DNA of 64,000 nucleotides from Bacteroides stercorirosoris (GTDB lineage: Bacteria > Bacteroidota > Bacteroidia > Bacteroidales > Bacteroidaceae). The notes beneath the pieces were generated by a model, which was not told the DNA's origin, did no database searches, and was given only the letters and a program-made list of their open reading frames with translations. Numbering within the stretch: the first letter of the stretch is position 1; each line of letters opens with the position of its first letter. The position numbers and the translations under genes are program-made. The stretch is taken from positions 62,001 through 126,000 of the forward strand of contig NZ_FQZN01000010.1 of NCBI RefSeq assembly GCF_900142015.1. The letters run 5' to 3'. Below, piece after piece: positions 27,981 to 55,396 of this stretch.

Positions 27981-28024
27981 TGTGCACTAATTGTATTTCG
28001 GACAATCTGTGCCACACTTCGGAC
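27981..28024 (-). promoter_or_regulatory. Candidate HTCS operator of the SusC/SusD operon (PUL 1)
   Basis: On the minus strand GTCCGAA occurs twice with a 21-bp period (complement TTCGGAC at 27997-28003 and 28018-28024), and the core TGTGGCACAGATTGTCC (28000-28016) matches 15 of 17 bases of TGTGGCACTAATTGTCC at 32469-32485 upstream of GH105. A third, inverted half-site GTGCACTAATTGT lies at 27982-27994. Shared only by the two promoter regions of this PUL as far as I could see by eye. Confidence 0.6.
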
Positions 28025-28096
28025 GTTTTTTACCCCTATGCACTTACACAATGAACATGATTATCCCTCTCAATCTAAGTAGTATTATCCGTCTCC

Positions 28097-28271
28097 TTAC
28101 GACATAACTTACGTCACCCTACAACGTAACTTCCGTTACCCCACAGGGAAACGCCCGTTACATGCCGAGGTAAAGGTCGTTACATACCGAGGTAAAGACC
28201 GTTACAATAGGGGGTAAAGACCGTTACATCCTGCGGTAAATGCTTTTACATACTGAAGGAAAAGCAATGTA
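28097..28271 (-). repeat. 22-bp tandem array, GTAA-N6-TTAC units (PUL 1)
   Basis: TTAC (GTAA on the minus strand) recurs at 28136, 28158, 28180, 28202, 28224 and 28246, exactly 22 bp apart, with degenerate units at 28114 (TCAC) and 28268. Unit example: GTAACGGTCTTTACC plus a 7-nt spacer. Each unit has an inverted GTAA/TTAC pair. The array starts about 30 nt after the HTCS stop and is in the same orientation as the HTCS gene. Four units match the array at 52772-52859 at about 80 of 88 positions. Confidence 0.85.
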
Positions 28272-28301
28272 AATGCAAGGCATTGATTACTACGGCCTTT
28301 A

Positions 28302-37033: not shown

Positions 37034-37268
37034 GTAGCTCATATTCCGAATAATAGGACAAATGTACACGGAACAATCAAGCTGAACGTTACTCTTGTAG
37101 TTAAATTTAATTAAACGAATAAAATGATAAAACTGTGAGGAGGAGAATAGTCGAATTTAATTCGTCATGATGTAGACAGAGGTGTTATTTTCCCCCTATG
37201 ACACCTCTCTATTGTAGAAATGACTTTCACAGGCGTTTCTTATTTCACAGCCTGCCTATCGGGATATA

Positions 37269-37400
37269 CTTCATTGCCTACTTTCTCTTCGTTGCACTAT
37301 AGTATACTTTGCGGATAACTATAGTCAAACGCAAGGATAACTATAGTGTTCCTTGCGAATAACTATAGTTAAACGAAAAGAAAGTAGGCAATGAAGAAAA
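37269..37400. repeat. Palindromic 22-bp-period array with AACTATAGTT cores
   Basis: Four internal units start at 37291, 37313, 37335 and 37357, each exactly 22 bp, sharing (G)ATAACTATAGT; AACTATAGTT is itself a perfect palindrome. The array is enclosed by 25-bp inverted repeats (37269-37293 and 37372-37396, 24 of 25 matching, core TTCATTGCCTACTTTCT). The total is about 130 bp. It shares the 22-bp period and palindromic cores, but not sequence, with the GTAA/TTAC arrays near the HTCS genes. Confidence 0.8.
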
Positions 37401-37459
37401 TCTGAATGGGTAATGAAAGAAGTCCAAACAGCATCCTGACAAAGAATATCCGACTCACA

Positions 37460-48246: not shown

Positions 48247-48304
48247 CAAAAATACGCCCCGCCGGATGTCGGAAGGTGGACAAACGGATATTTAAGGTGG
48301 ACAA
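48247..48304 (-). promoter_or_regulatory. HTCS operator and promoter of the GH43-GH51-GH43 operon
   Basis: On the minus strand TTGTCCACCTT occurs twice with a 21-bp period (complement AAGGTGGACAA at 48273 and 48294). 26 bp after the TTTG of the proximal copy lies TATTTTTG (48247-48254), a TAnnTTTG box. No -33 TTTG is present at 19-21 bp, as expected for an activator-dependent promoter. The same repeat, period and 26-bp distance occur at 53055-53116. Confidence 0.75.
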
Positions 48305-48337
48305 TCAATCAATTATGGTAAAAAAGCATATGCTAAA

Positions 48338-52652: not shown

Positions 52653-52749
52653 GAACTTCACATCAGTAAATAAAACAAGAGTGGGTTATACATCCGCTTA
52701 CGCAAACAACGAGCATCCATTAGTAAGCTAATATTCAACACATTGCATT

Positions 52750-52925
52750 TACACACAATTTACTTCATAATGTAAAAGCATTTACCGCCGGATGTAACGA
52801 CCTTTACCACCTATTGTAACGCTCTTTACCTCGGTATGTAACGGTCTTTACCTCGGCGTGTAAATGGAGTTACTGTATGGGGTTAACAAAGTTACCATTT
52901 GGGGTAAACAGAATTTCCATGATAG
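52750..52925 (+). repeat. 22-bp tandem array, GTAA-N6-TTAC units (PUL 2)
   Basis: Units start at 52772, 52794, 52816, 52838 and 52860 (GTAA), and degenerate ones at 52750, 52882 and 52904, all exactly 22 bp apart. Example: GTAACGGTCTTTACCTCGG. TTAC stands 10 bp after GTAA in every good unit. In the same orientation relative to the HTCS gene as the PUL 1 array, and with the same unit order (first unit GTAAAAGCATTTACC in both). Confidence 0.85.
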
Positions 52926-53054
52926 GAACAGAACATTCCCTCATAAGATGGAACATCGGGACAGTAAGGAATGATATCCGGTTGAGCAAAAGCATCTTAA
53001 AAGATCTCATATAAGTCAACTATTATAATAATTGTAGTTTTTACACTTATATAC

Positions 53055-53116
53055 TCGTTTGTCCACCTCTAATATTCGTTTGTCCACCTCTAAAAGCATG
53101 TATGAGCGTACTTTTG
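53055..53116 (+). promoter_or_regulatory. HTCS operator and promoter of the LamG-SusC/SusD operon (PUL 2)
   Basis: TCGTTTGTCCACCTCTAA is repeated exactly at 53055-53072 and 53076-53093 (21-bp period). From the TTTG of the second copy, 26 bp lead to TACTTTTG (53109-53116), a TAnnTTTG box, with no -33 TTTG. The leader to the ATG at 53177 is about 55 nt. Confidence 0.8.
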
Positions 53117-53176: not shown

Positions 53177-55396
53177 ATGAAGACAAGAAAATGGCCGGCT
53201 ATATGCCTGGCAATTCTTACGCTATGTATGGGGTCTTGTCAGGATTGGGGACAAATGAACCCAATTCCAGGACATCAAGTTTTACCTAAACTTGAGCTGG
53301 TTGCCAATCTGACATTCGATGATGAAAAACTAAACCCCGAAGAGATCCAAACATTCGCCTATCCTGATGGCGACATTCCTTCTTTATTTACTGATGAAAC
53401 GCTCGGACAAGTACTCCAATTTGAAGGAGGTTATGCACGTATCTTTAATCCTTTAAATAAGGTGAAAGTACAAGACGGCGTTTCACTGACTTTCTGGATG
53501 AAACAAGCCATTCCTGAAGAAGATGAAGATGCATCTACTTTTGAACAAGATGTAACGGGAGCTATTTTCTCATTTGAAAATGCAAACTCCACTCAACGCA
53601 TGTTTTTCACAGCAAACGGTTGGCTACATTATGAAGGTGTGGATGGCAGCTACGAAGACAACAACCCGGCAGATGCCAAAACCGGATTGATGAGTGCCGG
53701 TGAGTGGCACTATGTAGCAATATCCGTTAAGAATAACGGCTATTTTGTGTATGTAGACGGATTAAAGAAAATAGAGAAAACCGTCTCTGACTTCGATTGC
53801 TCAAAAATCGTTCAGTTCATGGCGTCCGTACCTTATCTATATATAGGATACGGTTCGGACACCGAGAATCAGAAGTGGCTGCTCGATGACCTGTCCGTTT
53901 ATCGGAATACGATAACAAACGCAGAAATCGCAGTGCCGAAGAAAGGCGGAGACAGCAGTGTCGAAGGTGGCGAGCTTTATCCCGGCCAAGTTTTCTTCAG
54001 CGATTTTGAAAGAGAAAACGATGGTACAACTATTTATGGTAAGGGTAGCTTCATTGATTTCGGAGGCAACTTTGGTCGCGTATTCCAAAATGTGGGTGGC
54101 GCTCAACGCTCCAATTATTTAATACTGCCCGAAGATGTCCTTTCTCATTCAGCGGAAACCAAAGAATTGAGCATCGGTGTATGGGTGAATGCTGCCAATG
54201 CAGGCGCTTCTGCCGATTATATGTGGGCTCCACTATTTTCAGCCTATGCCTCTGGTCCTGCTACAGATAATGGCACTCCCATGTTTATCTGCCAATATAG
54301 AGGTATTCTGCAAGTGAACTGTAATGGTTGGTGTGACTTTACAGATGCACAAAATACAAACCATGTCAATGGAGTCTACCACGATGCTACAGACTGGTTA
54401 GCCGATAAAGGTTGGCACTATTATACAGTTACGCTGACTGAGACCAATGCCAAAGTATACTTTGATGGAGTACTGAAAAATGAATGGAATGTTAGCGGTT
54501 CCGGTGACGGAAATGTAATTGGCGGCTTATTCTCCAACGGAAGTGATTTAAAATACATCTGTCTGGGAGGTAACCAAGCATGGAATTGGGGAGATAATGA
54601 CCCAGGATTCATGTTCGACGATATTGCCATTTATAATAAAGCGTTGACTAAAGCAGAAATCGATAATATCATTGCCTATAAAAAACTACCGACTCCAACG
54701 TATTTCAACGACTTTGAAAAAGGTGTAGGCAATGCCACAATCTACGGTGCAGGAACTATCGAACGTCCTGGCGGCGCATGGGGGAATGTATTCCAGAATG
54801 TAGGAGGCGCACTACGCTCTAATTATTTAGTGTTGCCCGAAGATGCCCTCTCTCATACTGCTGATACAAAACAATTGACTGTAGCCGTTTGGGTAAATTC
54901 TGAAAATGCAGGGGCTTCTACTGATTACATGTGGGCTCCGTTGTTCATGGCATACGGTTCAGGACCAGCCACTGATAATGGTGCGCCGATGTTGGCCTGC
55001 CAATACAGGGGGGTACTGCAAGTTAACTGTAGTGGTTGGTGCGACTTTACAGACGCACAGAATACAGCAGGTGTCAATGTGGCTTATCATGATGCCACAG
55101 ATTGGCTTGCCGATAAAGATTGGCATTTGTATACTGCCGTGTTCACTGAAACCAACGCTAAAGTCTACTTCGACGGTGTGCTGAAGAATGAATGGAATGT
55201 TTCGGGCTCAGGCGACGGGAATGTTATTGCAGGTTTGTTCTCTAACGGAAGCGACTTGAAATATATCTGCCTGGGAGGCAATCAAGCATGGAACTGGGGA
55301 GACAATGATCCGGGCTTTGCTTTCGACCACATTTCTATTTACAACGTAGCTTTAACTCAGGAACAAATTAAAGTTCTGGTTAGCCGTAAGAAATAA
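53177..55396 (+). CDS. Surface lipoprotein with three LamG/concanavalin-like domains
   Basis: 739 aa, lipoprotein signal (LAILTLCMGSC). Three laminin-G-like beta-sandwiches: about 45-255, 270-495 and 510-735. Domains 2 and 3 are an internal duplication, about 75% identical by eye; GGNQAWNWGDNDPGF and NEWNVSGSGDGNVI are identical in both, while the DNA differs at many third positions. There are no glycosidase motifs, so it is probably a surface glycan-binding protein that captures polysaccharide for the SusC/SusD pairs. First gene of the operon, 28 nt before SusC. An alternative is a catalytic LamG enzyme, but no acidic catalytic pair stands out. Confidence 0.8.
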   Translation: MKTRKWPAICLAILTLCMGSCQDWGQMNPIPGHQVLPKLELVANLTFDDEKLNPEEIQTFAYPDGDIPSLFTDETLGQVLQFEGGYARIFNPLNKVKVQDGVSLTFWMKQAIPEEDEDASTFEQDVTGAIFSFENANSTQRMFFTANGWLHYEGVDGSYEDNNPADAKTGLMSAGEWHYVAISVKNNGYFVYVDGLKKIEKTVSDFDCSKIVQFMASVPYLYIGYGSDTENQKWLLDDLSVYRNTITNAEIAVPKKGGDSSVEGGELYPGQVFFSDFERENDGTTIYGKGSFIDFGGNFGRVFQNVGGAQRSNYLILPEDVLSHSAETKELSIGVWVNAANAGASADYMWAPLFSAYASGPATDNGTPMFICQYRGILQVNCNGWCDFTDAQNTNHVNGVYHDATDWLADKGWHYYTVTLTETNAKVYFDGVLKNEWNVSGSGDGNVIGGLFSNGSDLKYICLGGNQAWNWGDNDPGFMFDDIAIYNKALTKAEIDNIIAYKKLPTPTYFNDFEKGVGNATIYGAGTIERPGGAWGNVFQNVGGALRSNYLVLPEDALSHTADTKQLTVAVWVNSENAGASTDYMWAPLFMAYGSGPATDNGAPMLACQYRGVLQVNCSGWCDFTDAQNTAGVNVAYHDATDWLADKDWHLYTAVFTETNAKVYFDGVLKNEWNVSGSGDGNVIAGLFSNGSDLKYICLGGNQAWNWGDNDPGFAFDHISIYNVALTQEQIKVLVSRKK

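Follow-up and report, generated by a model that had tools for sequence, protein, structure and literature searches.

The array of 22-bp palindromic units that follows the HTCS gene of PUL 1 is probably the body of a MITE-like relic that was spread by an ISL3-type transposase and whose half-sites and phase seem to have since been kept by selection, with no part in HTCS or PUL control. That it is a dispersed repeat without a tie to HTCS is near certain, and an origin of the element as a MITE is likely. The reading that we favour is that of a MITE with a palindromic minisatellite nested inside, of the BrickBuilt kind but a different variant.

Within the window, that is the whole 64,000-nt stretch of Bacteroides stercorirosoris DNA analysed here, two arrays of GTAA-N6-TTAC-N8 units run at an exact 22-bp period, far above chance. 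The two-unit pattern GTAA-N6-TTAC-N8-GTAA-N6-TTAC has seven matches in the window, all inside these arrays, and none in 100 dinucleotide shuffles, and Tandem Repeats Finder independently gave a period of 22. The initial annotation, made from the sequence alone, had reported both arrays, the second in PUL 2 and in opposite orientation, and both are real, each with seven phased units (Table 1). Its estimate of about 80 matching bases in 88 agrees with the 81 of 88 measured over the best 88-bp stretch (137 of 175 over the 175-nt common core), and it was right that the array is not a CRISPR, the 8-bp spacers being related to each other among units and copies. The bounds it had drawn located the first array correctly but stopped short, as the common element of about 175 nt runs beyond them to about 28295 with a distinct non-array tail.

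Table 1. Coordinates of the arrays, the modules of the element and nearby direct repeats in the window, and of two array-bearing elements in B. fragilis
Feature	Position	Strand	Description
Array 1	28104..28249	+	seven 22-bp GTAA-N6-TTAC-N8 units, 5 perfect
175-nt core of copy 1	28121..28295	+	common to all 18 genomic copies; gap-free multiple alignment
Non-array tail of copy 1	about 28250-28295		within the 175-nt core; ends in TGATAATCAG-like sequence
Degenerate outer end of copy 1	28060..28103	+	decayed units by eye; no terminal inverted repeat detectable
Array 2	52772..52917	-	seven 22-bp units, 5 perfect; inverted relative to array 1
175-nt core of copy 2	52726..52900	-	tail module at 52726-52771
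21-bp direct repeat, PUL 1	27997..28024		TTCGGAC twice, between array 1 and susC gene; separate from the element
21-bp direct repeat, PUL 2	53051..53093		CGTTTGTCCACCTCTA twice; separate from the element
B. fragilis element	1834021-1834318		298 bp; TIR-flanked array
B. fragilis element	4917058-4917316		259 bp; TIR-flanked array

Searching its own genome with array 1 gave 19 matches at 18 places, one element being matched twice. All 18 copies align gap-free over 175 nt. Compared with their consensus, the outermost ten positions at either end excluded, they are free of short indels and differ by whole units in two cases (loci L012 and L017; L and G are our handles for loci and genomes). In two relatives, G303 and G290, short indels inside the array are present in four of 25 matches (L198, L200, L204 and L207). 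One end is formed by a fixed tail, GGTAAATRYAAT followed by TGATAATCAG-like sequence, which by eye can also be made out in Parabacteroides; towards the opposite end the element fades out. All own copies are intergenic, with a largest gene overlap of about 4 nt, and among the 80 arrays in the matches listed from named-genome loci none overlaps a gene by more than 30 nt (genes around arrays were called with a purpose-written simple script). The 18 own copies are therefore short, multicopy, non-coding and intergenic, as MITEs are, and the 'dispersed repeat' that the initial annotation had given as its fallback can be specified as a MITE-like element.

Its regulatory reading, as an element of the HTCS-controlled operon or as insulation between regulator and activated operon, fared differently. 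The regulators flanking both window arrays are indeed HTCS proteins (Reg_prop, Y_Y_Y, HisKA, HATPase, receiver and AraC-type HTH), and the claim that the two arrays occupy the same relative place holds in so far as both lie between the HTCS stop and the next operon, but the array of PUL 2 is followed first by a LamG-domain gene (53177-55396) and then by the susC-type gene. This LamG-domain gene carries an internal 300-nt direct repeat (75% identity, 54080-54379 and 54788-55087). HTCS genes are 2 of the 36 flanking genes, while their share of the genome is about 0.9% if it has 5000 genes (p 0.04); this is no independent test because the window holds both cases. Enrichment beside HTCS genes, proposed at the outset as a check, is not what the survey returned: the copies are dispersed, only the window's two have an HTCS gene as immediate neighbour and none of the other 16 own copies does, L142 and L152 having an HTCS-related gene one gene further away. 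Conversely, 42 of the 44 Y_Y_Y (HTCS-like) matches in the genome have no array alongside, so that a role in insulation is unsupported. In the named collection, six immediate flanking genes at five of the 80 listed arrays cluster with HTCS proteins, though most fall well short of HTCS length. In G303 the array at the PUL 2 site is a decayed one.

The likely operators are also separate from the arrays. In the accessible part of PMC3878776, HTCS motifs are described as two regulator-specific direct repeats about 21 bp apart at the target promoter. Their period of about 21 bp is similar to the 22 bp of the array, but those operators comprise two direct sites at the promoter that the regulator targets, whereas the array is palindromic and mostly lies away from HTCS genes. 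Candidates of the published form are present in both PULs, upstream of their operons, as separate 21-bp direct repeats (Table 1), and these are probably the HTCS operators of their PULs. The candidate operator region of PUL 2 also matches, in inverted orientation, 52 nt at 48274-48325 (75%) in front of the HTCS gene, which may reflect autoregulation. On the neighbour survey and the array-free HTCS-like genes we rejected a role of the array in HTCS or PUL control, and consider its reading as a regulatory or insulating element very improbable; the array has no specific role there.

Evidence for mobility comes from Bacteroides fragilis Q1F2, in which copies still resemble each other outside the array on either side (L024 against L076, 249 bp at 84.7%) and the element ends form inverted repeats of about 22 bp, TTCATCCGRYAAATGCGTAGTT, so that the element measures roughly 260-300 bp. 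This terminal inverted repeat (TIR), searched with up to three mismatches, has 11 matches in the genome and its reversed control has none; nine of the 11 flank a 22-bp array, at seven of the 14 array places. At the 11 array places measured, the TIR match averages 16.9 of 22 on the tail side (11.9 in shuffles) and 15.4 on the outer side (11.8), and in seven of them the tail-side TIR stands exactly 63 bp from the array end. In G331, another genome of the genus, nine inverted pairs of the exact TIR span 1291-1292 bp, and each of the nine contains an ISL3-family transposase frame of 409-417 aa without stops. The 22-bp TIR of this insertion sequence is identical to that of one array-bearing B. fragilis element; unlike the array element it encodes a transposase, and G331 has no 3-unit GTAA-TTAC array. 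An ISL3 remnant in G318 lies at the same offset from a TIR (19 bases) as in G331. Because the same TIRs flank the array in one genome and an ISL3 transposase in another, we take the B. fragilis array to be the body of an ISL3-type MITE; the TIR in common with an autonomous element, expected of a MITE, has been found only for TIRs of the B. fragilis type.

At the 18 own copies no TIR is detectable (mean best match 11.6 of 22 at the tail, 12.0 in shuffles), and the MITE reading for the window copies consequently rests on homology of array and tail. Beside window-type arrays the TIR appears in single cases (20 of 22 at L196 in G303, one mismatch at L333 in G343); it was found in only one of ten G303 arrays and is on average not above chance in 13 G290 and 8 B. 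oleiciplenus arrays. Of two TIR-like sites in the own genome, neither coincides with an array or has any of the genome's nine ISL3 matches beside it. A cognate-type ISL3 transposase (above 230 bits) was present in only one of the nine array-positive genomes searched (G430). A derivation of the array units from the TIR was rejected, as the similarity between the G331 TIR and the B. fragilis unit is not significant (p 0.19); of the TIR variants only that of G287 fell under p 0.02, for three of the five strings tested. At G287 C46:48339-48762 and G334 C5:6788-7206, in genomes without 3-unit GTAA-TTAC arrays, lie inverted TIR pairs separated by about 420 bp, which may be MITEs of the same ISL3 type with other contents.

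The distribution of the arrays is patchy. The 4-unit pattern has at least 80 loci in a public genome collection, and those among the matches listed are all from Bacteroidales (Bacteroides, Parabacteroides, Tannerella, Alloprevotella and further relatives). With the 3-unit pattern, 10 of 100 genomes of the genus were positive, the own included (seven with 14-50 matches and three with 1-4), as were 2 of 151 in the family draw, again including the own, and 1 of 247 in the order draw, which is the own genome; such exact-pattern counts miss decayed arrays. The reversed pattern gave no match in the genus, family and order searches. Only a minority of Bacteroidales thus have related arrays, and a genome usually has either many or none; unit and spacer sequences are by eye alike within a genome and different between genomes. 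A plasmid origin was rejected, no plasmid record matching, and so was a phage origin, two phage records matching weakly, each near one record end; the 3-unit pattern is present in two viral contigs.

Six of the 18 own copies (window copy 1, L140, L145, L146, L149 and L153) have flanks that match an array locus in G303 or G290, and the flanks of window copy 2 weakly match a decayed array locus in G303. The positions of L143 and L147 are common to B. oleiciplenus and an uncultured Bacteroides, that of L142 to the same uncultured Bacteroides and that of L145 to B. timonensis. When the 11 own copies with unmatched flanks were queried by joined flanks in four relatives, no clean empty site was found; G343 gave an occupied spacing at L143 and L147, and four locus comparisons gave no clean junction, the intergenic DNA being too divergent to read. 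No target-site duplication was found at the flanks of the B. fragilis elements, inspected by eye.

Orthologous sites allow the array to be compared with its surroundings. Of twelve orthologous pairs, nine show less change in the array than in the non-coding DNA beside it and three show more (window copy 1 against L183 of G303, 17.8% vs 13.1%, and L147 twice), with 3 gaps in arrays against 82 in non-coding DNA. Seven pairs were kept; of the five left out, three had aligned poorly (L140 twice and L153 once) and two were second comparisons, of L145 and of L147. In the seven kept pairs the arrays had no indel and the neighbouring non-coding DNA 27 (p 0.0003). The substitution rate of the whole array is about equal to that of the neighbouring DNA (62 of 1000 columns and 148 of 2117), and within the array half-site columns had changed in 8 of 384 cases (2.1%) as against 54 of 616 (8.8%) for the other columns (p 0.00001). 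Three of the seven partners (L042, L023 and L069) came from a search whose pattern admits intact half-sites only; when the test is confined to the four pairs found by BLAST, indels stand at 0 against 25 (p 0.005) and half-site changes at 6 of 224 (2.7%) against 28 of 360 (7.8%; p 0.010). When four further pairs from BLAST were included, the decayed G303 array among them, the indel result weakened (p 0.053) and the half-site result stayed (p 0.002). That half-sites and 22-bp phase change less than their surroundings suggests binding by a putative protein, and that something may still read half-sites and spacing after insertion. The DNA binding platform of the initial annotation may accordingly be right, although on balance we doubt that the array is bound by a protein.

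The same constraint would fit a dispersed host regulatory or architectural site, such as a nucleoid-protein or chromosome-organising array, which is under selection and not mobile and to which the ISL3-type ends in B. fragilis are secondary. The absence of short indels from the 18 own copies, the array positions in common with other species (L143, L147 and L142) and the placement of the 14 B. fragilis arrays, no different from uniform round the chromosome (Kolmogorov-Smirnov p 0.50), would agree with it as well. We nevertheless consider such a site unlikely, given that 90 of 100 genomes of the genus have no 3-unit match, that the B. fragilis TIRs stand at a nearly fixed distance from the array, and that many array positions have no counterpart even in close relatives, the matches in G303 or G290 being confined to the six copies named above and the weak one at PUL 2.

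The gaps that hold the arrays are co-directional in 12, convergent in 5 and divergent in 1 of the own cases. Among the 80 listed arrays of the named collection, 62 have both flanking genes (36 co-directional, 19 convergent and 7 divergent gaps) and 18 lack a flank. Own and listed loci together give 24 convergent against 8 divergent gaps (p 0.007), a comparison of loci that are not independent because some are orthologous; in the own genome alone, 5 against 1 is not significant (p 0.22). A convergent excess is expected if insertions near promoters are lost. It would also be consistent, as would the frequent location of arrays after gene ends, with a structured RNA or bidirectional terminator at gene 3' ends, like repetitive extragenic palindromes. 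The folding data do not bear this out, nor the dispersed structured RNA suggested at the outset: both strands fold about equally, only mildly better than shuffles (mean z -1.9 and -2.2), the fold of the alignment is weak and Rfam gave no match at gathering thresholds. Moreover, terminator-like matches are near chance in both window regions (1 vs 0.5 expected and 0 vs 0.5), and several copies lie beside a separate hairpin (by eye), so that we regard an RNA or terminator as quite improbable.

Some features of the neighbourhood vary by locus. A different repeat of about 165-175 bp stands in inverted orientation on the two sides of the L145 array, its copies 84% identical, and in three genomes arrays stand upstream of a gene that we take from its sequence to be type I methylase-like (L036, L087 and L060, of which two are probably the same orthologous locus). 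The idea that a gene next to the array acts in trans as its partner was rejected: the recurrent neighbours are orthologous loci and what we presume, by recognition from sequence, to be sensor-regulator, sigma-factor-like and methylase-like genes, with no consistent candidate.

For comparison, BrickBuilt of Porphyromonas gingivalis is, in the accessible part of PMC4596501, a MITE with a nested 23-nt minisatellite and 19 intergenic copies in a single genome. It resembles the present element in its Bacteroidales host, its intergenic location, a tandem unit of similar length, imperfect repeats, and a leader and tail with short terminal inverted repeats, these last being seen here in B. fragilis and in single copies of G303 and G343; a distinct leader and tail round the repeats are present here too. 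As far as that description extends, the two differ in the unit, which here is 22 bp (by Tandem Repeats Finder; the multi-locus array scan required that period) with a palindromic GTAA-N6-TTAC core, and, compared by eye, in the TIR, which in BrickBuilt is like GAGACCTTTGCA and most similar to P. gingivalis ISPg1 and here is TTCATCCGRYAAATGCGTAGTT, common to an ISL3-family insertion sequence. The present element occurs in several genera and its TIRs, unlike those of BrickBuilt, are not detectable in the window's genome; long stem-loops are reported for BrickBuilt and only mild folding is seen here. The paralogous FopS sRNAs of B. thetaiotaomicron (14 copies) are likewise multicopy, of Bacteroides and mostly intergenic (9 of 14), with a PUL-related function. 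Compared by description only, they are transcripts of about 65-70 nt with a seed region, the accessible part of PMC11697453 describing no 22-bp palindromic array. Like the Crp-like motif wwwTATGTTnTAnAACATAwww, they were set aside on reading. A literature search, with subscription literature outside its reach, found no earlier printed description of the repeat, and the accessible part of PMC5771137 holds nothing on it.

The 22-bp period itself reaches beyond the GTAA family. A sequence-blind scan of Bacteroides and other Bacteroidales for any palindrome repeated three times at periods of 12-45 found six arrays at 22 (44 being a multiple) in 464 kb of the own genome, window included, three at 22 in 400 kb of G316, which is without GTAA arrays, and one at 22 across 368 kb taken from a further 20 genomes of the genus. 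G264 and G303, scanned over 200 kb each, together gave one array at 19, one at 22 and one at 24, and in 324 kb from 20 other Bacteroidales two at 23 and one at 33. Bacteroides gave 13 arrays in total, of which 11 are at 22; these 11 represent at least six sequence families and include three of the GTAA family that prompted the scan; loci chosen for carrying arrays gave one further array each at 41 and 42. The preference of Bacteroides for 22 bp is strong, not absolute, and palindromic arrays at L349:19818 (24 bp) and at L284:8234 and 9650 (23 bp) are among the exceptions to it. Unrelated families at this one period are ACTATAGT, TGCCA-TGGCA, CTCAT-ATGAG, GAAAC-GTTTC, CTAT-ATAG and GTAA-TTAC. 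The window has such an unrelated array at 37263-37402, with four ACTATAGT units between the arms of a 41-nt inverted repeat (88% complementary), and another ACTATAGT array lies at L244:13942. At L210 of G317, a site orthologous to the own L143, a different 22-bp palindromic array (TTCAGTCGTATACTGAA, about four units) by eye takes the place of the GTAA-TTAC element. Several unrelated palindromic minisatellites at one period might point to a shared Bacteroides factor, and we tentatively suggest, as a conjecture that may well prove wrong, a host DNA-binding or transposition factor that reads alternating inverted half-sites about 11 bp apart, the families changing and the geometry staying.

In the mechanism that we propose, a small non-autonomous element, in which 22-bp palindromic units form a minisatellite between an outer end and a conserved tail, would have been spread in trans by an ISL3 transposase of the G331 type, and the window copies would be old relics with decayed ends. 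After insertion the GTAA/TTAC half-sites and the 22-bp phase would have been kept by selection, a step for which the evidence is moderate. Such retention would be explained most simply by a putative dimeric DNA-binding protein that occupies successive palindromes on one helix face. On this reading as a MITE-like relic, a conspicuous repeat of gut Bacteroides moves from polysaccharide regulation to the world of mobile elements; annotators might otherwise mistake such arrays for PUL regulatory sites. The TIR and the ISL3-type source become testable handles, and the sequence-blind rule that palindromic arrays lie mostly at 22 bp makes the putative DNA-binding factor searchable.
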